DNA of 58,139 nucleotides from an uncultured Myxococcales bacterium (GTDB lineage: Bacteria; Myxococcota_A; UBA9042; DTJE01): the NCBI GenBank assembly GCA_903847405.1, contig CAINDP010000242.1, positions 1 to 58,139 on the forward strand, written 5' to 3'. The notes below the pieces were generated by a model. The model made no database searches and was not told the DNA's origin. It saw only the letters and a program-made list of their open reading frames with translations. Made by a program: the position numbers and the translations under genes. Position 1 is the stretch's first letter; every line of letters starts with the position of its first letter. Below, in pieces: positions 5,542 to 15,816 of this stretch.

Positions 5542-6330
<789 letters not shown>

Positions 6331-6332
6331 CG

Positions 6333-6533
6333 TCAGCCTCCTCCGACCAGGGTCACGACCTCGACCCGATCGCCTTCCGTCAGCACGTGTTCGGCGTGGC
6401 GCGCCCGGGGGACCACGTCACGGTTGACCTCGACCGCCATCGGTCCCGGGGGCAATCCCAGGGTGGCGACCAGTTCCCGGACGGTCGTCGCCTCGGGGAT
6501 CTCGCGCTCGACTCCGTTCACCCGGATCTTCAT
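6333..6533 (-). CDS. thiS: Sulfur carrier protein ThiS
   Basis: The 66-residue ubiquitin-like protein starts MKIRVNGVE and ends in VTLVGGG. The C-terminal diglycine is the site of adenylation and thiocarboxylation. It ends in three glycines rather than two, a minor variation. It is the first gene of thiSGE. It has the MoaD/ThiS beta-grasp pattern, including [11 protein letters not shown] and [10 protein letters not shown]. Confidence 0.9.
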
Positions 6534-6584
6534 CGTCTGGAACCCCGTTCCAGCGCGGCCGGCCGCGCCCTGCATGGTGCGCGC

Positions 6585-6613
6585 AGTCTGGTCCCCGGGG
6601 GCGTGATTGTCAA
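6585..6613 (-). promoter_or_regulatory. Predicted sigma70-type promoter for thiSGE
   Basis: On the minus strand TTGACA (6613-6608) is followed after 17 nt by CAGACT (6590-6585). The -35 is perfect; the -10 matches 3 of 6 including the key A2 and T6. Transcription would start near 6578, about 45 nt before thiS. The leader is too short for a TPP riboswitch and shows none of its conserved boxes. Confidence 0.5.
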
Positions 6614-6625
6614 GGCGGGGGCGCC

Positions 6626-6653
6626 TTGCGGAAGCCGCCGTCGTGCGTAAAGT
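6626..6653 (+). promoter_or_regulatory. Predicted promoter for trxB
   Basis: TTGCGG (6626-6631), a 16-nt spacer and TAAAGT (6648-6653) lie just upstream of trxB. This promoter is back to back with the thiSGE promoter. The match is moderate. Confidence 0.4.
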
Positions 6654-6701
6654 ATCGCGAGGCCGACGCCCGTGTTCGGCCGAGGTGAATGAGGAGGCTC
6701 C

Positions 6702-7628
6702 ATGCGGAACGTGGTGATCATCGGTTCGGGTCCTGCCGGGCTCACGGCGGCAATCTATACGGCGCGCGCCAACCTGGCGCCCCTGGTCCTGGAAGGCATC
6801 CAGCCGGGCGGGCAGTTGACCCAGACCACCGACATCGAGAACTTCCCCGGCTTTCCCGAGGGCATCGAAGGACCGGAATTGATGGACAAACTGCGGGAGC
6901 AGGCCCAGCGCTTCGGCGCCGAGACCGTGTTCGCCATGGCGTCGAAGGTGGACTTCAGCCGGCGGCCCTTCCGGGTCCAGGTGGACGAAGGCGAGTGGGT
7001 CGAAACCGCGTCGGTGATCCTGGCCACGGGCGCATCGGCCCAGTATCTGGGCCTGCCGTCCGAGCAGCGCCTCGTCGGCCACGGCGTTTCGGCGTGCGCG
7101 ACCTGCGACGGCTTCTTCTTCAAGGGCAAGGAACTGGCCGTCGTGGGCGGCGGGGACACCGCGCTGGAGGAGGCCACGTTCCTGACCCGCTTCGCGACGA
7201 AGGTCACCGTCATCCACCGGCGCGACAAGCTGCGCGGGTCGAAGACCATGCAGGACCGGGCGTTCGCGAACCCGAAGATCGCCTTCCGCTGGAACGCCAC
7301 GGTCGACGAGGTGCTGACCGAAACCGGCCACGAGGTGGTGGGCCTTCGACTGAAGGACACCGTGACCGGCGAAACCTCCACCCTGCCGGTCCAGGGCCTG
7401 TTCCTGGGCATCGGCCACAAGCCCAACACGGAAGTGTTCCAGGGCCACGTGGAACTGGACGCGGTCGGGTACGTCGTCACGAAGCGCCACACCGAAACCA
7501 GCGTCCCGGGCGTCTTCGCCTGCGGTGACGTGGTCGATACCCGGTATCGCCAGGCCATCACCGCGGCCGGCACCGGGTGCGCCGCGGCCATCGACGTCGA
7601 AAAGTACCTCGAGGAGCACGCGCTTTGA
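6702..7628 (+). CDS. trxB: Thioredoxin-disulfide reductase
   Basis: The 308-residue cytoplasmic flavoprotein passes electrons from NADPH to thioredoxin. FAD site IIGSGPAGLTAA lies at the N-terminus, the redox pair is CATC (Cys132/Cys135), the NADPH site is VVGGGDTALEEA with HRRDKLR following, and the second FAD motif is GVFACGDVVD. All key residues are present and the length is standard. Start ATG 6702 follows GAGGAGG. The stop overlaps the TTG start of nth (TTGA), so the two genes are probably translated together. Confidence 0.95.
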   Translation: MRNVVIIGSGPAGLTAAIYTARANLAPLVLEGIQPGGQLTQTTDIENFPGFPEGIEGPELMDKLREQAQRFGAETVFAMASKVDFSRRPFRVQVDEGEWVETASVILATGASAQYLGLPSEQRLVGHGVSACATCDGFFFKGKELAVVGGGDTALEEATFLTRFATKVTVIHRRDKLRGSKTMQDRAFANPKIAFRWNATVDEVLTETGHEVVGLRLKDTVTGETSTLPVQGLFLGIGHKPNTEVFQGHVELDAVGYVVTKRHTETSVPGVFACGDVVDTRYRQAITAAGTGCAAAIDVEKYLEEHAL

Positions 7629-8383
7629 ACCGCCCGCCCCGTGACCCGGGCCGCGCCGCCTGGGACCACCTGGTCGCCACCCTCGAAGCCTGGAGGACCG
7701 GGTTCGAGCCGCCCTCGGTGACGAAGGTGGCCGAGGAGCGCCACGATCCCTTCCGCGTGCTGGTCGCGACGATCCTCAGCCTGCGGACCCAGGACGCGGT
7801 GACCGAGGCCGCGTCCAACCGTCTGTTCGCGCTGGCCGACACCCCGGCCGCCCTGGCCGCGATGGACGTGGACGCCATCGCCGCGGCGATCCATCCGGCG
7901 AACTTCTACCTGACCAAGGCCCAGCGCCTGAAGGCCCTGTCGCGGCGCCTGGTGGACGAGTTCGGCGGCGTCGTGCCCGCGGATCTGGACGTCCTGCTGA
8001 CCTTCGGGGGCGTGGGGCGCAAGACCGCGAACCTCGTGCTGACCGAGGGCTTCGACCTGCCCGGCCTGTGCGTGGACGTCCACGTCCATCGAATTCCCAA
8101 CCGGCTGGGATGGATTGCGACCCGGGATCCGCTGGCGACGGAAACCCTGCTGCGGGAAATCCTGCCGCCCGAACACTGGAAGCCCATCAACATGCTGCTG
8201 GTGACCTTCGGCCAGCGCGTCTGCCGGCCCACCTCGCCCCACTGCTCGATCTGCCCCCTGGCGGGTCCTCCCGAGCGCGCAGGCAGAGGCGATGGGTTTC
8301 CGCAGGAAACTCTCGCCGGAGCCGAAGCCGCCTCGGGAGGATCAATCCGGTGCGCCCGGGTCGGCGTGACCCGCAGCCGCTGA
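7625..8383 (+). CDS. nth: Endonuclease III, with in-frame palindromic insertion
   Basis: The 252-residue protein is a base-excision DNA glycosylase/AP lyase. The helix-hairpin-helix LTFGGVGRKTANLVL carries the catalytic Lys, and CVDVHVHRIPNRLGW carries the catalytic Asp. The 4Fe-4S loop begins normally: C-x6-C-x2-C (VCRPTSPHC, then SIC). The fourth Cys should come five residues later. Instead 27 codons (8267-8347) intervene before RCARVGVTRSR, which looks like the natural family tail. Deleting those 81 nt restores CPLAG-R-C, the expected C-x5-C. A structured repeat therefore sits in frame between two cluster ligands. Start TTG 7625 overlaps the trxB stop. Whether the enzyme still holds its cluster is unknown. 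Confidence 0.9.
   Translation: MNRPPRDPGRAAWDHLVATLEAWRTGFEPPSVTKVAEERHDPFRVLVATILSLRTQDAVTEAASNRLFALADTPAALAAMDVDAIAAAIHPANFYLTKAQRLKALSRRLVDEFGGVVPADLDVLLTFGGVGRKTANLVLTEGFDLPGLCVDVHVHRIPNRLGWIATRDPLATETLLREILPPEHWKPINMLLVTFGQRVCRPTSPHCSICPLAGPPERAGRGDGFPQETLAGAEAASGGSIRCARVGVTRSR
8266..8341 (+). repeat. Palindromic element, copy 1 (inside nth)
   Basis: The 76-nt element has perfect 10-bp outer arms TCCTCCCGAG (8266-8275) and CTCGGGAGGA (8332-8341). Inside, GGCGA/TCGCC (8288-8292, 8313-8317) encloses GTTTCC-GCA-GGAAAC (8296-8310). Its reading frame within nth encodes PPERAGRGDGFPQET and onward. Two more copies occur at 42441 and 51071. The setting resembles Rickettsia palindromic elements, which also insert in frame within genes, but there is no sequence relation that I can see. 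Confidence 0.85.
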
Positions 8384-8428
8384 CGTGCGGTACCCTTGGG
8401 CGCGCGCTCGGCGCGGTCCTTGATCGTC

Positions 8429-8456
8429 TTGACATTTCCCTGTGCGCGAATAGGAT
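8429..8456 (+). promoter_or_regulatory. Predicted sigma70-type promoter for the gene at 8493
   Basis: TTGACA (8429-8434), a 16-nt spacer and TAGGAT (8451-8456) give a start near 8463, about 30 nt before the ATG. The -35 is perfect and the -10 matches 4 of 6. Confidence 0.6.
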
Positions 8457-8492
8457 TGCGCCGGCTTTTGACGCCGCACCAGGAGTCCATCA

Positions 8493-9812
8493 ATGGCGAA
8501 TTCCCGGAAGAAGGTCGTGATCGTCGGCGCCGCAGGGCGCGATTTCCACAACTTCAATTGCGCCTACCGCGACAACGAGGCCTACGACGTCGTCGCGTTC
8601 ACCGCGGCCCAGATCCCGGACATCGCCGGGCGCCGCTACCCGGCCGTCCTGGCGGGCCACCTGTATCCCGAGGGCATCCCGATCGTCGACGAGTCGGAGC
8701 TGGAAAACCTGATCCACGCCCACAACATCGACGAAGTCGTGTTCGCCTACTCCGACGTGTCCCACCAGACCGTCATGGAGATCGGCAGCCGCGTGCTGGC
8801 CGCCGGCGCCAACTACGTCCTGCTGGGCGCCCGCGACACCATGATCCCGTCCTGCAAGCCCGTCGTGGCCGTCTGCGCCGTCCGCACCGGTTGCGGCAAG
8901 AGCCAGACCTCCCGCTTCGTGGCCGAGGCCCTGCGCGCCGCCGGCAAGAAGGTCGCGGTCATCCGCCACCCGATGCCCTACGGCGATCTGGCCGCCCAGG
9001 CGGTCCAGCGCTTCGCGACCGTCCAGGACCTCGTCGACCACAAGTGCACCATCGAGGAGCGCGAGGAGTACGAACCCCACATCGAATGCGGCTCGGTCGT
9101 GTTCGCCGGCGTCGACTACCACGCGATCCTGAAGGCCGCCGAGGCCGAAGCCGACGTGATCCTGTGGGACGGCGGCAACAACGACATGTCGTTCTACAAG
9201 CCCGACCTGCTGATCACCGTGACCGACCCCCTGCGGCCCGGCCACGAGACCACGTTCCACCCCGGCATGACGAACCTGCTGATGGGCGACGTGATCGTCA
9301 TCAACAAGATCGATTCGGCGTCGGCCGAGGCCCTGGCGACCGTCAAGGCCTCCATCGCCAAGTGGAACCCGAAGGCCGCCATCGTCGAGGCCGAGTCCAC
9401 CGTGACGCTGGACCACCCGATGGACCTGAAGGGCAAGCGCGTCCTGGTCGTCGAGGACGGCCCCACGCTGACCCACGGCGGCATGCCGATCGGCGCCGGC
9501 TTCGTCCTGGCCCAGCGCGCGGGCGCGATCCTCGTGGATCCGACCGAGCACGCCGTGGGCAGCATCCTGGCGACGTACGCCAAGTACCCCCACTGCAAGC
9601 AGATCCTGCCGGCCATGGGCTACGGCGACAAGCAGTTGGAAGAACTGGCCGAGACGATTCGCAACACGCCCGCCGACGTCGTGCTGGTGGGTACGCCGAT
9701 CGACCTGGGCCGCCTGATCCAGGACACCAAGCCGATGGTTCGCGTGCGGTACGAACTGACCCCGGTGGCGGGCCCCGACCTGGCCGCCCTGGTGGTCAAG
9801 GCGATCGCCTGA
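8493..9812 (+). CDS. Cyclic 2,3-diphosphoglycerate synthetase-like P-loop protein
   Basis: The 439-residue cytoplasmic protein has an N-terminal Rossmann-like domain (KKVVIVGAAGRDFHNFN) and a P-loop near residues 131-137 (RTGCGKSQTSR). GNNDMSFYKPDLLI and VIVINKIDSA follow, resembling the NKxD-type guanine or adenine site. This arrangement matches the family of archaeal cyclic 2,3-diphosphoglycerate synthetase, whose bacterial members are widespread and mostly untested. In methanogens the enzyme makes the thermoprotectant cDPG using ATP. The role in a presumably mesophilic bacterium is open; it may act on another phosphorylated substrate. It has its own promoter and is followed by an unknown gene after 43 nt. 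Confidence 0.75.
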   Translation: MANSRKKVVIVGAAGRDFHNFNCAYRDNEAYDVVAFTAAQIPDIAGRRYPAVLAGHLYPEGIPIVDESELENLIHAHNIDEVVFAYSDVSHQTVMEIGSRVLAAGANYVLLGARDTMIPSCKPVVAVCAVRTGCGKSQTSRFVAEALRAAGKKVAVIRHPMPYGDLAAQAVQRFATVQDLVDHKCTIEEREEYEPHIECGSVVFAGVDYHAILKAAEAEADVILWDGGNNDMSFYKPDLLITVTDPLRPGHETTFHPGMTNLLMGDVIVINKIDSASAEALATVKASIAKWNPKAAIVEAESTVTLDHPMDLKGKRVLVVEDGPTLTHGGMPIGAGFVLAQRAGAILVDPTEHAVGSILATYAKYPHCKQILPAMGYGDKQLEELAETIRNTPADVVLVGTPIDLGRLIQDTKPMVRVRYELTPVAGPDLAALVVKAIA

Positions 9813-9855
9813 GGCATGTACGGCGCCGCGGAACATCCGCGGCATCGGAGGTTCG

Positions 9856-10413
9856 ATGAACTCGACGAACTCCACCGACAATTTCATCGCCCTGCAGGAC
9901 GATTTCGACCACCTGGTCCGGACGCTGGACCTGGCCATGCTGATCGAGCACATCCGTCGGCTGGACTCGATGGCGTTCGCCCGGCACTTCAAGGGCTATC
10001 GCCCCCAGATGCTGGGCCGCAAGCGCGTCGTGGACGCCCTGCACTTCGAGGTGTTCAAGCGGCGCAACGAAACGGTCGCCGAGGTCCTGATCCTGCTGTG
10101 GAACCAGACCCACCGGGATCTGTACCAGGCGATGCTGGCCCTGGTCCGGACGATCCGCGAGGACGTCGAGAACATCGAGAAGATCGAGGACGCGAAGGCC
10201 AACGACTTCATCGACGAACTGCTGCTGAACTTCGACAAGCAGGACGTGCACGCGTGCATCCGGCTGAACGAAGTGCGGTTTTCGCCCGAAGTCATCCTGG
10301 CGCGCTTCCTGGGTGGCGAGGCGCCCGCCGCGACGCCTGCCCCGGCGCCCGAGCCTGCCCCTGCGACGGAGCCCGCCCCCGCGCCGGTGACGGACGAACC
10401 CGCCCCGGAATGA
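9856..10413 (+). CDS. Unknown helical protein with Pro/Ala/Glu tail
   Basis: The 185-residue product is of no family that I recognise. Residues 1-145 are predicted mainly helical and charged (ALHFEVFKRRNETVAEVL, DKQDVHACIRLNEVRF), without signal peptide or membrane segment. Residues from about 150 are a low-complexity Ala-Pro-Glu tail of the kind used as flexible linkers. GGAGG stands a good distance before ATG 9856. It lies 43 nt after the cDPG-synthetase-like gene on the same strand, so they may form an operon. Base composition matches the neighbours. Confidence 0.75.
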   Translation: MNSTNSTDNFIALQDDFDHLVRTLDLAMLIEHIRRLDSMAFARHFKGYRPQMLGRKRVVDALHFEVFKRRNETVAEVLILLWNQTHRDLYQAMLALVRTIREDVENIEKIEDAKANDFIDELLLNFDKQDVHACIRLNEVRFSPEVILARFLGGEAPAATPAPAPEPAPATEPAPAPVTDEPAPE

Positions 10414-10533
10414 TCCCCGGTCGCCCGACCTGCCCGACCCACCCGACCAGACCCGAAGCGCACCTGCGGCTTCCTGTGCAACGAACGGCGGCGTTCCTCG
10501 TGCCGATCCCCGCCCGGTGATTGGAGAATAGTT

Positions 10534-10563
10534 TTGACACTGTGCTCGCCGATTTGAGATAAT
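10534..10563 (+). promoter_or_regulatory. Strong predicted sigma70 promoter for the Ser-His-Gly repeat protein
   Basis: TTGACA (10534-10539), an 18-nt spacer and GATAAT (10558-10563) form the best promoter match in the window (11 of 12 hexamer positions). Transcription would begin near 10570, leaving a 20-nt leader with GGAGGGGAG before the ATG. Upstream bases 10524-10533 are relatively AT-rich. High expression is expected. Confidence 0.7.
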
Positions 10564-10589
10564 GCCGGGGCGAATTCTGGAGGGGAGCC

Positions 10590-10934
10590 ATGGCCTCGCG
10601 ACTGCCTACGTTCAAGAAGCGCGTTCAGGACTTCCTGTCCAGCGAGGAAGGCAAGGTCACCCGCGGACAGGCTGCTGCGATCGGCTCGTTCCTGCTGATG
10701 GCCGGCACCAGCGGTCACGCCCTCGCGGCCGGCTCGTCCGTCACGGGTGGCGAGGGGCCGGCCTCGGACCTCGGCGTCGAGCAGCACTGCTCGCACGGTT
10801 CCCACGGTTCGCACGGCTCCCACGGCTCGCACGGTTCCCATGGCTCCCATGGTTCGCATGGCTCCCATGGCTCCCACGGTTCCCACGGCTCCCACGGCTC
10901 CCACGGCTCGCACGGTTCCCACGGGTCCTGGTGA
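10590..10934 (+). CDS. Small protein with 15 tandem Ser-His-Gly repeats; HxsA-like candidate
   Basis: The 114-residue product has three parts. Residues 1-27 are a charged leader-like segment (FKKRVQDFLSSEEGK). Residues about 28-48 are a hydrophobic stretch ending in HALAAGSS, which could be a signal peptide with a long n-region. A Gly/Ser linker and His-Cys then precede 15 perfect Ser-His-Gly triplets and a final Ser-Trp. His-x-Ser repeats are the mark of HxsA proteins of the HXS system, whose peptides are modified by radical SAM enzymes HxsB and HxsC. No such enzyme is adjacent, so a plain secreted metal-binding His-rich protein is the alternative. A strong promoter and ribosome binding site precede it. 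The fixed amino-acid repeat despite synonymous codon variation shows selection on the protein. Confidence 0.8.
   Translation: MASRLPTFKKRVQDFLSSEEGKVTRGQAAAIGSFLLMAGTSGHALAAGSSVTGGEGPASDLGVEQHCSHGSHGSHGSHGSHGSHGSHGSHGSHGSHGSHGSHGSHGSHGSHGSW
10791..10925 (+). repeat. 15 x 9-nt coding tandem repeat (Ser-His-Gly)
   Basis: There are fifteen uninterrupted 9-nt units of the form TC(C/G)-CA(C/T)-GG(C/T/G). Variation is confined to third codon positions. Repeat number may vary between strains through slippage, but the synonymous drift suggests that the array is not newly expanded. Confidence 0.9.
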
Positions 10935-11055
10935 GTCGTCGCTCCTTCCTTCGCGCACCGCTTTCCCCGGAAGAAAGGTTCCCCTGAATGCCCGAACGGA
11001 GCGACCGGCAGATCGCTGAGCGCGAAGGGTCTGCGCGGTCTTGCAGGGCGCCGCC

Positions 11056-11084
11056 TTTACACGGGTCCGGTGGCTTGGTACCTT
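11056..11084 (+). promoter_or_regulatory. Predicted promoter of the ccm operon
   Basis: TTTACA (11056-11061), a 17-nt spacer and TACCTT (11079-11084) precede ccmE by about 30 nt. The same architecture (TTTACA-17-TACCAT) precedes the gene at 42843. The 120 nt between the Ser-His-Gly gene and this promoter show no gene and no clear intrinsic terminator. Confidence 0.5.
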
Positions 11085-11115
11085 TTCGCGGCTTCTGGGC
11101 CGGCCTGGGGGGATT

Positions 11116-11622
11116 GTGAACGCGCGGAAAATCGTGCCTGTGGTCGTTGCCCTCGCCGTCCTGGGCGGCGGCTTCGCCATCGTCGCCTCGTCGATGCAGA
11201 GCGGCGTCTTCAACCTGACCCTGGAAGAGGCCCTGGCGGCGTCCGAGACCCTGGGCTCGAAGGAGTTCAAGGTCGGCGGCAACGTCATGGAGGGGACCAT
11301 CGCCAAGGGGTCCAACACCTTCGAAACGCTGTTCGCCATCACCGACATCGGGGGGCATCGCCTGGATTGCCTGTACCAGGGCGCCCTCCCGGATCCGTTC
11401 GCCGAGGGCCGCGAAGTGATCGTCCAGGGACACCTGGAGGGTCCCACGCGGATGCGGGTGTCCAAGATCACGGTGAAGTGCCCGTCGAAGTACCAGGAAG
11501 CCGGGGTCACCGAGGAACAGGCGGACCAGTACTACAAGGGCAAGTACGAAACCGGCCACCAGGAGGCCGCCCCGGCAGGCGCTCCCCCGGCCGTGAAACC
11601 CGAACCTTCCCGGACGAACTGA
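11116..11622 (+). CDS. ccmE: Cytochrome c maturation haem chaperone CcmE, CXXXY type
   Basis: The 168-residue product has one N-terminal membrane anchor (about 6-24) and the OB-fold of CcmE (FKVGGNVMEGTIAKG, then DCLYQGALPDPFAEGREVIVQG). In Escherichia coli CcmE haem attaches to His in an H-x3-Y motif. Here the same place reads C-P-S-K-Y, the CXXXY variant known from Desulfovibrio and archaea, where Cys replaces the His. It acts at the periplasmic face of the inner membrane. The likely start is GTG 11116, after a G-rich binding site. A flexible Ala/Pro/Glu tail ends the protein. It leads the ccm operon; ccmF follows after 27 nt. Confidence 0.9.
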   Translation: MNARKIVPVVVALAVLGGGFAIVASSMQSGVFNLTLEEALAASETLGSKEFKVGGNVMEGTIAKGSNTFETLFAITDIGGHRLDCLYQGALPDPFAEGREVIVQGHLEGPTRMRVSKITVKCPSKYQEAGVTEEQADQYYKGKYETGHQEAAPAGAPPAVKPEPSRTN

Positions 11623-11649
11623 TGTGACCCGTACTCCCTCGAGGCGACG

Positions 11650-14283
11650 ATGAGCAGTTCGGCGCTTGGTCAAATCCTGGTCTTCGCGTCGCTGGTCCTG
11701 ACGGCCTTCGTGGCCGCGGTGGCCATCGTGGGCGCCAGCGGACGGAAGGCGCCGCTGGTCCGGGCGGCAGGCTTCGGCATGCGGGCCCTGGCCTGGCTGG
11801 GCGTCGCGACGTCGCTGGTGCTGTTGCACGCGATCGTGACCCACGACTTTTCGAACCAGTACGTCGCCCACTATTCGGACACGACCCTGCCGCTGATGTA
11901 CCTGATCACCACCTTCTGGGGCGGCGAGAAGGGCGCGCTGGCGTTCTGGGTCCTCAGCCTGTCGGCCCTGGGCGGCGCGCTGGCGTGGACGCATCGCAAG
12001 GACGACTCGCCCTACACCGGTTGGTTGCTGGCGACGACGGCCCTGGCCCTGCTGTTCTTCGACATCCTGATGGTCTTCGCATCCAGCCCCTTCGAAACGT
12101 TCCTGGCATCCGGCGGCCCCGCGGACGGAACCGGCCTGAATCCCCTGCTGCAGAACCCGCTGATGGCCGTGCATCCGCCGCCGCAGTTGCTGGGGTTCAT
12201 CGCCTACACGATCCCGTTCGCGTACGCGATGGCGGCCATGGCCTCCGGCAGGAAGGACGGATCCTGGGTGCTGGACGCCCGGCGGTGGTCGCTGTTCGCC
12301 TGGGTGATGCTGACGGCCGGCCTGGTGGTCGGGGAACTGTGGTCGTACCTGGAACTGGGGTGGGGCGGGTACTGGGGCTGGGACCCGGTGGAAAACGCGG
12401 CCCTGCTGCCCTGGCTGACCGGCACCGCGATGCTGCACACCTTTTCGGTCGAGTTCCGGACCGGCCTGCTGCGCCGCTGGAACGTCTTCCTGGCGTTCCT
12501 GACGTTCTTCCTGACGATCTTCGCGACGTTCCTGACCCGCAGCCAGTTGATCCAGTCGCTGCACTCGTTCAGCGGATCGGCCCTGACGCCGTTCTTCCTG
12601 TGGTACCAGTTGGTGATCATCGTGGCCGCCCTGGGCCTGATCGCCTGGCGGTGGAACTTCCTGAAGCCCGCCGGCCGCATCGAATCGTACCTGTCCCGGG
12701 AAGCCCTCGTGGTCACGGCGACGCTGCTGCTGCTGATGGCCGTGTTCGTGGTGATGTGGGGCACGCTGCTGCCCAAGTTCAGCGAATCGCCGGCGGTCCT
12801 GTCCGTCGTCGACAGCGCCCTGGCGGCCCTGGCCGGGATTACCGGCCAGACGCACGTCCCCCTGACGGGCGCGGTCAACGTCGGCCCCGAGTGGTTCAAC
12901 AAGGCCGTCGGTCCCCTGGGGATCGCGGTCCTGTTCCTGACGGCCATCGGCCCGGTCTTCGTCCTGCGGCAGGCGCCCGGTGACGTCGCCCGTCGGACGG
13001 CCTGGCGGACCCTCGCCGTCGGCGCCGGCCTGGCGGTGGTCCTGTCGGTGGTGCTGATCCTGGTCCGCGGCGCGGGGCTTTCGACCGCGTCGGGGATGCC
13101 CTTCGGGGCCGCCTGCAGCCTGTACGTGAAGTCCCTGTCCTGGCCCGGCGTCTACGGCATCCTGGCCGTGACCTTCGCGATGCAGGTGCTGGGTGTGGCC
13201 TCCCTGGACTGGGTTCGCAGCGTGCGGGCCCGGCGCTCGGCGAAGAGCGAATCCCCCTGGGCCGCGGCGGGCGTGCTGTTCCGCGAAAATCCCCGGCGCT
13301 ACGGCGGCCACCTGGTCCACATCGGCGTCGCCCTGACGTTCCTGGGGTATGCGGGTGCTGCGGGCAAGCTGGTCAAGAAGGACGCGGTCCTGGCGCCCCT
13401 GGAAGCGACGACGCTGGGCGGTCGCGAGGTGCGGTTCCTGGGCACGAAGGATCGCTGGGAGCCCATCGGGGGCTTCGCGGCACTCGAGGCGCATTTCGTG
13501 GTGCTGCCGAAGGGCCGCCCGATCGCGCCGGGGGTCCTGGACGCCGTGCGTGCGGCGGTGCCGGGCGCGACGGCGGTCGAGGCCGGCGAGACGCCCTTCG
13601 TGAAGGTCCGGTTCGCCACCGAAGCCGCGGCTCGGGCATGGCTGGTGACCGTCACGGCCCGCACCACGCTGGCGCCGTCCCTGGCGCTGATGTCCCCCGA
13701 TCGCACCCGTCGCGAGGTCCGCCTGGTGCCGCGGCGCCTGGAGGTCCTGCGCGTCCTGCCCGCCTCGTTCCAGCGCCTGGCCCAGGCGGCGAACCTGGTT
13801 GCGGACAGCGCCGGCGGCGAACGGATCACGGTCCGCACGGGGGCCCGGAACGACCCGACGATGACCGTGGCCGCCCTGGACGCCGAGGCCTTCGACGCGT
13901 TCCTGGCCGGCTGGCAGGCGACGGCGAACGATTCCGTGATCCTGGCGGCCCGCGCGGCGGCGAAGGATCCGACGGTCGTCGAGGTGGTGCCGGAGGGCGT
14001 CGGGGACGTGATGACGCCCGAGGTGCGGTACTACCTCAAGTCCGAAAACCCGACCACCGAGGTCGAAATCCAGCCGGGCCTGCTGACCGACATGTACCTC
14101 GCCGCCACGCCCGCCCAGGGCGCCGGCGAAGTGAACCTGACCGCCATGGACCACCCGATGATGACGTCCCTGTGGCTGGGAGCGGTCATCGCCCTGCTGG
14201 CCGGGGGTGCGCTGATCGCACCCGTGCGTCGCCGGCGCGACCCGGTGGCGGTGGCGAGGCCGGAAGGGGAGGGGGCGGCATGA
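11650..14283 (+). CDS. ccmF: Cytochrome c haem lyase subunit CcmF, with enlarged periplasmic domain
   Basis: The 877-residue polytopic membrane protein delivers haem from holo-CcmE to apocytochromes. It has the tryptophan-rich haem-handling motif (GYWGWDPVENAALLPWL), the conserved PPQLLGFIAY loop and many membrane spans. Typical CcmF is about 630-660 residues. The excess lies between the span near GGHLVHIGVALTFLGYA (about residue 551) and the last span (TSLWLGAVIALLAGGAL). This soluble periplasmic region of about 280 residues includes a unit that mixes beta and alpha structure. Its 3' end overlaps the next small gene by 4 nt (ATGA). Confidence 0.92.
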   Translation: MSSSALGQILVFASLVLTAFVAAVAIVGASGRKAPLVRAAGFGMRALAWLGVATSLVLLHAIVTHDFSNQYVAHYSDTTLPLMYLITTFWGGEKGALAFWVLSLSALGGALAWTHRKDDSPYTGWLLATTALALLFFDILMVFASSPFETFLASGGPADGTGLNPLLQNPLMAVHPPPQLLGFIAYTIPFAYAMAAMASGRKDGSWVLDARRWSLFAWVMLTAGLVVGELWSYLELGWGGYWGWDPVENAALLPWLTGTAMLHTFSVEFRTGLLRRWNVFLAFLTFFLTIFATFLTRSQLIQSLHSFSGSALTPFFLWYQLVIIVAALGLIAWRWNFLKPAGRIESYLSREALVVTATLLLLMAVFVVMWGTLLPKFSESPAVLSVVDSALAALAGITGQTHVPLTGAVNVGPEWFNKAVGPLGIAVLFLTAIGPVFVLRQAPGDVARRTAWRTLAVGAGLAVVLSVVLILVRGAGLSTASGMPFGAACSLYVKSLSWPGVYGILAVTFAMQVLGVASLDWVRSVRARRSAKSESPWAAAGVLFRENPRRYGGHLVHIGVALTFLGYAGAAGKLVKKDAVLAPLEATTLGGREVRFLGTKDRWEPIGGFAALEAHFVVLPKGRPIAPGVLDAVRAAVPGATAVEAGETPFVKVRFATEAAARAWLVTVTARTTLAPSLALMSPDRTRREVRLVPRRLEVLRVLPASFQRLAQAANLVADSAGGERITVRTGARNDPTMTVAALDAEAFDAFLAGWQATANDSVILAARAAAKDPTVVEVVPEGVGDVMTPEVRYYLKSENPTTEVEIQPGLLTDMYLAATPAQGAGEVNLTAMDHPMMTSLWLGAVIALLAGGALIAPVRRRRDPVAVARPEGEGAA

Positions 14284-14405
14284 GCGCGACGGACGTGATT
14301 TTCGCGGTGCTGGTGGCCGGCGCGGTGACACTGGCCCTGCGGTCGGCGCTGCGCATGCTGGGCGCCGCCTGGGGCCTGGACCGGGACAAGGGGGAAGGGC
14401 GATGA
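14280..14405 (+). CDS. 41-residue single-span membrane protein in ccm operon
   Basis: This tiny gene starts in the ATGA overlap with the ccmF stop and ends in an ATGA overlap with the next gene. Both junctions argue for real, coupled translation. The product has one hydrophobic span (VIFAVLVAGAVTLALRSALRML) and a charged C-terminus (DRDKGEGR). Its size and position suggest a small Ccm accessory subunit comparable to CcmD, yet a more typical CcmD-like protein is encoded at 17257. No family recognised. Confidence 0.65.
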   Translation: MSATDVIFAVLVAGAVTLALRSALRMLGAAWGLDRDKGEGR

Positions 14406-15106
14406 ACCGCGCGGGCCTTCCCACCATCCTCCCGTTGTCCGGACTGGCGTTGGCGGTCTGCGTGGTCCTGGCGTCGCCCCTTGCGGCCGCCGCGGCCCCC
14501 GAGGGCCCCGTGGCCACCGTCCTGGTCGAAATCAGTTCCGACGAGGGCACCCTGTCGGTGGCCCAGGCCTTTTCGGTCCTGGGCGGCGGTGCGGGTACCT
14601 GGACGGTGCCGCTGCTGCTGCCGGAATCCGGCCCCCTGCCCCGCATGATCGAAAGGATCGGCGACGCGCCGGGCCTGGAAATCCAGGTGCGGGGCGGCGC
14701 CACGGCCAAGGTTCGCGACGGGGCGGTGGTCGTGTCCGGCACGCCGGGCATGTCGGGCGACTTCGGCGTCGAAGTCCATTTCGAGGTCCCGGTCAAGGAC
14801 GCGCACCTGGTCCTGGGGGCGACGACGTCGCTGGACCTGGTCCGCGTGCAGGTCATCCACCGGGGCGGCCCCTACGCGCTGCAGGTCCGGCCCCTGGCGC
14901 CCTTCGCGTACCGCGAGGAATCGGAAGGCGACGGGACGTGGCGCTACCAGGACCTGCTGGAACCGCTGCCCGCGGGACAGCGCCTGCGCGTCGCGGTCGG
15001 CCGTCTGCCGTCGGCCACCGGGCCCTACCGTACGGCGGGCCTGGCGCTGCTGTTGCTGGTCGCGACCGGCACCGCGGTCCTCCTGGTCCGCCGGAGGGCC
15101 GGATGA
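14402..15106 (+). CDS. Unknown exported, C-terminally anchored protein in ccm operon
   Basis: The 234-residue product has a signal peptide (about 1-31, ending AAAAA), a periplasmic beta-rich domain of about 160 residues (AGTWTVPLLLPESG, GDFGVEVHFEVPV) and one C-terminal membrane span (TAGLALLLLVATGTAVLLV) followed by Arg residues. No Cys pair or haem motif is present, so it is not CcmH or CcmG. Its start overlaps the preceding small gene and its stop overlaps ccmA (ATGA), placing it firmly in the operon. It may help substrate presentation to CcmF or CcmABC; that is inference from position only. Confidence 0.75.
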   Translation: MNRAGLPTILPLSGLALAVCVVLASPLAAAAAPEGPVATVLVEISSDEGTLSVAQAFSVLGGGAGTWTVPLLLPESGPLPRMIERIGDAPGLEIQVRGGATAKVRDGAVVVSGTPGMSGDFGVEVHFEVPVKDAHLVLGATTSLDLVRVQVIHRGGPYALQVRPLAPFAYREESEGDGTWRYQDLLEPLPAGQRLRVAVGRLPSATGPYRTAGLALLLLVATGTAVLLVRRRAG

Positions 15107-15816
15107 GCGACGGGCCCCTGAACCTGCGGTGCGAAGCCGTGGCCCGCGTCTACGGACGGCGCCACGTGCTGCGCGACGTATCGTTCACGGCCAGTGCCGG
15201 CGAGGTCGTCGCCATCGTGGGGCGCAACGGCGCCGGCAAGAGCACGCTGCTGTCCATCCTGGCCGGCCGGCGCCTGCCCGACCGCGGTCGCGTGGTCGTC
15301 GCCGCGGGCGATCGTCCCGCCACCCCTTCCGAAACGCGGTCGTGGCTGGGGTTCCTGCCCCACGACCTGCTGGTGTACCCGGACCTGACCGCCCGCGAGA
15401 ACCTGGAGTTCACCGGCGTCCTGCACGGCCAGCCCCATCCCGCGAAACGGGCCGTCGAGGTCCTGGAGGCCGTCGGCCTGACGATCGACGCCGACCGCAC
15501 CGTCCGGACGTTTTCCCGGGGCATGCAGCAACGCACCGCCATCGGCCGCCTGATGGCGTCGGGCGCCCGGTTCTGGCTGCTGGACGAGCCGTCCACGGGC
15601 CTGGACGAGTCGGGGCGCCGCTGGCTGCTGCAGCTGCTGACGGCCCAGGGGCGCGAGGGCCGCACCGTCCTGTTCACGACCCATCACCCGTCGGAGGTCG
15701 AAACGGCCGCGACGCGGGTCCTGGTCCTGGATGGCGGACGCCTGGTCGAGGACCTGCCGGGCGGGCTGAAGGGCGCAACCGCCGCCTTCGCCCGGGTGGA
15801 CGGGGGGCAGCCCTGA
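15103..15816 (+). CDS. ccmA: Haem-export ABC transporter ATPase CcmA
   Basis: The 237-residue ABC ATPase has Walker A GRNGAGKST, signature FSRGMQQR, Walker B FWLLDEPS and the switch His in TTHHPSE. With CcmB and CcmC it releases holo-CcmE from CcmC by ATP hydrolysis. Start ATG 15103 overlaps the upstream stop; its own TGA overlaps the ccmB ATG by one nucleotide. Confidence 0.93.
   Translation: MSDGPLNLRCEAVARVYGRRHVLRDVSFTASAGEVVAIVGRNGAGKSTLLSILAGRRLPDRGRVVVAAGDRPATPSETRSWLGFLPHDLLVYPDLTARENLEFTGVLHGQPHPAKRAVEVLEAVGLTIDADRTVRTFSRGMQQRTAIGRLMASGARFWLLDEPSTGLDESGRRWLLQLLTAQGREGRTVLFTTHHPSEVETAATRVLVLDGGRLVEDLPGGLKGATAAFARVDGGQP

Follow-up and report, generated by a model that had tools for sequence, protein, structure and literature searches.

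The window, a 58,139-nt stretch of DNA from an uncultured Myxococcales bacterium, contains a gene (hxsA4, positions 10590–10934, plus strand) whose 114-residue, precursor-like product is by its sequence a new member of the curated HxsA4 family. This protein is very probably a precursor-type substrate that an HXS-type radical SAM system modifies in trans. The main evidence is the co-occurrence of HxsA4 and HxsB across the phylum together with the adjacency of their genes in many genomes, which argues for HxsA4 being a substrate of HxsB and its partners, supplied in trans in the window's lineage. The gene set also includes R4, a conserved radical SAM component that is unnamed by present family models.

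The hxsA4 gene and its product

The gene is preceded by a promoter consisting of TTGACA (10534–10539), an 18-nt spacer and GATAAT (10558–10563), which spans 10534–10563 on the plus strand with 11 of 12 matches. This is the sole promoter-like site across the 1.9 kb from 9800 to 11700, where shuffled sequences give 0.1. The ribosome binding site, TGGAGGGG, is located at 10578–10585 (plus strand). The promoter footprint and the GGAGG core are kept in all 12 aligned upstream regions of the window's family, and the other upstream DNA hardly aligns. A near-consensus promoter and a ribosome binding site had been proposed in a preliminary description of this DNA, and both are borne out by their conservation.

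The complete product is MASRLPTFKKRVQDFLSSEEGKVTRGQAAAIGSFLLMAGTSGHALAAGSSVTGGEGPASDLGVEQHC(SHG)15SW, and all of its segments are encoded on the plus strand. Residues 1–65 (10590–10784) form the leader region, which contains SSEEGKVTRGQAAAIGSFLLMAG and is 71–87% identical over matched residues to the leaders of 11 family relatives, among which the repeat number differs. Residues 29–47 (10674–10730) form a hydrophobic stretch that ends near Ala-Leu-Ala. Its mean hydropathy is 1.30 over 19 residues, and the corresponding values are 0.9–1.4 in relatives from the same order and from families f4 and f7 and lower in other families. The stretch, a putative export signal, is confined to the window's order and a few neighbors. 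The leader is followed by a His-Cys pair (residues 66–67; 10785–10790), which is found in 24 of the 26 proteins extracted from relatives and is absent from L104 and from L057, a different HxsA-like protein. The core (residues 68–112; 10791–10925) consists of exactly 15 Ser-His-Gly units, which generate His-Gly-Ser repeats, and Tandem Repeats Finder reports a 9-bp array at 10785–10928. A Ser-Trp cap (10926–10931) completes the chain, in agreement with the C-terminal layout described previously. The extracted proteins end in GSW in 23 cases and in GQW in one; the cap is absent from L095 and L057. The last 49 residues of the window's protein include 16 His.

Compared with their own consensus, the 15 repeat units differ at 16 positions, all of them synonymous, where ~26% would be expected to be synonymous (P about 4e-10, a naive value since tandem copies are not independent). 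This pattern indicates that the protein repeat is under selection and is not chance low-complexity DNA. The 26 extracted proteins share a near-constant leader, His-Cys, (Ser-His-Gly/Ala)n and Ser-Trp, with n ranging from 6 to 31, although some arrays may have been shortened by short-read assembly. Two species of one genus (G011 and G040) have identical leaders and arrays of 15 and 6 repeats.

In NCBIfam profile searches the protein matches HxsA4 (NF038313) with 94.7 bits against a curated cut-off of 55, and it is the sole HxsA4 in its genome. The earlier suggestion of a link to HXS systems, based on the His-x-Ser repeats, is therefore upheld at the level of a curated family. The original HxsA model (TIGR03979) gives no match to the protein at E-values up to 10, and the protein is of the A4 type. 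Its named relatives belong to uncultured Myxococcales and other Myxococcota. The leader and repeat layout is common to the HxsA4 family, but in the window's genome and family the gene does not adjoin hxsB, and the leader contains a hydrophobic stretch that most other families lack.

HXS enzymes and their co-occurrence with HxsA4

HXS systems were named from sequence. The system is composed of HxsA, HxsB, HxsC and HxsD and goes back to Haft and Basu (2011), as cited in PMC9062424. In the window's genome (G000), HxsB (TIGR03978) is encoded at G000:C156:6945–8345 (529.3 bits, cut-off 370), with HxsD (TIGR03976; 58.2 bits, cut-off 50) just upstream. The best match to the curated HxsC model (TIGR03977) in the whole genome scores 98.2 bits against a cut-off of 267.9, and the HxsC-like radical SAM gene that follows hxsB on C156 is below the cut-offs of both HxsC and HxsC4. 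The resulting three-gene operon, hxsD–hxsB–(HxsC-like), is kept in the window's family. Searches for HxsB, HxsC and HxsD gave no match on the window's contig, as the preliminary description had noted for the immediate neighborhood of the gene. Its idea of an orphan substrate does not survive: the genome carries HxsB and HxsD on a separate contig, and HxsA4 co-occurs with HxsB phylum-wide. The genome search that it called for recovered HxsB and HxsD over cut-off, without the exact HxsC family; an HXS-like radical SAM enzyme, the lack of which would have counted against the proposal, is present in the form of HxsB.

The gene set is thus spread over three contigs: C242 (the window, with the substrate gene), C156 (hxsD, hxsB and the HxsC-like gene) and C115 (the radical SAM cassette described below). 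It resembles the HXS system in having HxsB and HxsD, and differs from it in the unlinked substrate gene, the lack of an HxsC over cut-off and the additional radical SAM proteins, of which R4 is the most prominent. At L118 4443–4658, a 71-residue HxsD-resembling protein is encoded between hxsD and hxsB, and some lineages may have two copies of hxsD. Several radical SAM genes, one of them HxsC4-like (265 bits), also lie together at a second locus of the window's genome (L129, G000:C127).

The co-occurrence of HxsA4 and HxsB, each scored over cut-off, was evaluated in 379 genomes of the phylum, most of which are draft metagenome bins. Both proteins are present in 110 genomes, HxsA4 only in 3, HxsB only in 15 and neither in 251 (Fisher P about 3e-74, uncorrected for shared descent); further counts are given in this order, as both/query gene only/HxsB only/neither. 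About 113–115 genomes are HxsA4-positive, and the counts of 110 and 3 rest on 113. The three genomes with HxsA4 only are all incomplete (58–89%). Collapsing the sample by genus gives 67/2/10/157 (P about 3e-45), which, together with the agreement within family f18 described below, provides a partial control for shared descent. The co-occurrence extends over 24 families and is also seen when only unlinked genomes are counted (53/3/15/251). In 57 genomes hxsA4 lies <10 kb from hxsB on the same strand, mostly at 76–355 bp; in 53 it does not.

The window's family represents the unlinked arrangement. The gene order in the window (5542–15816) is thiG–trxB–nth–GTPase-like–unknown–hxsA4–ccmE–ccmF–unknown–ccmA, and it is kept in the family as far as contigs reach. 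In all 12 family genomes, including the window's, hxsA4 comes after the same GTPase-like protein and conserved protein; ccmE and ccmF follow wherever the contigs continue, some of which end inside the block. Neither the hxsA4 locus nor the hxsB locus of G040 comes closer than 47 kb to an end of its contig, so the split is real in that genome and not the result of a contig break.

A radical SAM cassette with a conserved member, R4

The cassette on C115, four radical SAM genes in a row (L128 7427–11754, minus strand), came to light in a search for HxsC4 and is located directly after a heavy-metal RND efflux operon. A 365-residue protein of this cassette matches the HxsC4 model (NF038332) over its length with 328 bits, but remains under the cut-off of 500 in the window's genome; true HxsC4 genes are found directly after hxsA4 in G356 and others. 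In other families, members of the cassette adjoin hxsD–hxsB or hxsA4.

The last gene of the cassette, R4 (G000:C115:69375–70307), encodes a 311-residue radical SAM protein that matches no NCBIfam model over cut-off, the best being HxsC with 77.9 against 267.9 bits. Relatives of R4 are present in 122 of the 379 genomes and follow HxsB closely (115/7/10/247). Among the 30 genomes examined from family f18, R4 and HxsB are both found in 16 and neither is found in 14. R4 lies <10 kb from hxsB in 43 genomes, from hxsA4 in 31 and from either in 52. G093 carries a cassette copy that faces hxsD–hxsB and in which one stop codon breaks R4. As a negative control, a radical SAM gene found next to hxsB in the window's genome alone shows no association with HxsB (12/13/113/241, P = 0.12), indicating that the co-occurrence of R4 is specific.

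This control gene belongs to a pair on C156 that was rejected as a part of the system. At L009 9433–11099 (G000:C156, minus strand), the gene, which encodes a 388-residue radical SAM/SPASM protein, overlaps that of a 167-residue protein with a hydrophobic N-terminus and DLPLAGG(M/L)PLPEP repeats. The pair does not co-occur with HxsB (the same P = 0.12) and does not adjoin hxsB in family relatives; it may be a separate enzyme–peptide pair.

Proposed maturation of HxsA4 and alternatives

The predicted model of HxsB (mean pLDDT 87.7) contains radical SAM and SPASM parts preceded by an N-terminal domain. Residues 24–89 of this domain are predicted to adopt a β-β-β-α-α-α arrangement, with pLDDT mostly 90 or above and with its elements ordered as in RiPP recognition elements. 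When the N-terminus alone was compared by sequence with solved structures, the matches were mainly to pentatricopeptide proteins over 20–40 residues and were taken as chance. The best PDB match of the whole chain is CteB (5wgg, E 2e-23), and further best solved matches are an anaerobic sulfatase maturase, TigE, ChlB and SuiB. The cysteines expected to bind iron–sulfur clusters are invariant. The nearest other family is the thioether-forming ranthipeptide maturase PapB (124.5 bits). HxsD was also considered as the recognition element, but its confident α/β core model found no counterpart in the PDB at E below 0.001, nor any recognition element among its best 50 structure matches.

From the computed results (family membership, the enzymes, their co-occurrence, the neighborhoods in relatives and the conserved promoter) we infer a route of leader binding, reaction and export, and a role for the product. 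HxsB, a radical SAM/SPASM enzyme, would bind the conserved HxsA4 leader through its recognition-element-like N-terminal domain. Together with HxsD and at least one additional radical SAM enzyme, it would then modify the His-Gly-Ser repeats in succession; candidates for the additional enzymes are the HxsC-like protein encoded beside hxsB and the members of the four-enzyme cassette, above all R4. The most likely chemistry would cross-link the ring of each His to the Ser that follows the intervening Gly, after which the hydrophobic stretch may direct export in the window's clade. Searches of openly available literature yielded no description of an HXS product.

The cross-linking chemistry is a lead guess from the sequence motif and is offered tentatively. 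In triceptides, the enzymes join an aromatic residue at position i to residue i+2; known cases connect His C2 to the Cβ of Ala or of Arg, and also Phe with Ser (PMC11002830). The window's His-Gly-Ser repeats have the same i to i+2 spacing as these three-residue cyclophane peptides, but its HxsB is far under every cyclophane-enzyme cut-off (56–65 bits for XyeB, YhhB and GrrM, cut-offs 310–450). Because HxsB is nearer to thioether-forming enzymes and the precursor contains only one Cys, it is solely the motif spacing that points to a His–Ser link. That R4 might be a dedicated HxsA4 maturase, making a chain of His–Ser rings with HxsB and HxsC-like enzymes in a pathway spread over at least three loci, is conceivable, though less likely than not.

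In view of the affinities of HxsB, another possible reaction is the formation of a single thioether at the near-invariant Cys, with the repeats serving passively as a spacer or carrier. PapB and CteB, the nearest family and the nearest solved structure, are both thioether-forming, and the His-Cys pair is nearly constant among the extracted proteins. We regard this as unlikely, since L104 lacks the Cys yet keeps the array, L057, an HxsA-like protein of another genome, has no Cys adjoining its repeats, and selection holds every repeat unit identical in the protein. The high His content, the hydrophobic stretch in the window's clade and the kept position ahead of ccmE–ccmF, which would hint at heme or copper handling, could instead fit a His-rich protein that is exported unmodified and binds metal or heme. 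This is improbable: the ccm neighborhood is seen only in the window's family, whereas the co-occurrence with HxsB covers 24 families, and the abutting of hxsA4 and hxsB in 57 genomes would be left unexplained. A modified protein could still bind metal, and metal binding may even be what the modification is for. The Gly at every third residue and weak matches to Scl2/SclB (30.3 bits) and PF01391 (25.4 bits) recall a collagen-like triple helix with a structural or adhesive function, a reading that we consider very improbable. Both matches are under their cut-offs (325 and 27.2 bits), the repeats contain no Pro, a bulky adhesin domain is absent, and the constant companions of the protein are radical SAM enzymes.

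A radical SAM substrate of the HxsB system remains the preferred assignment for HxsA4. Substrate and enzymes need not be neighbors, and neighborhood-based searches therefore miss such pairs; the trans arrangement and R4 make this system a variant that neighborhood-based annotation would miss. R4 adds a conserved radical SAM component to the HXS-type gene set, and the natural arrays of 6 to 31 repeats between near-constant caps are substrates for probing how enzymes act along a repeat.
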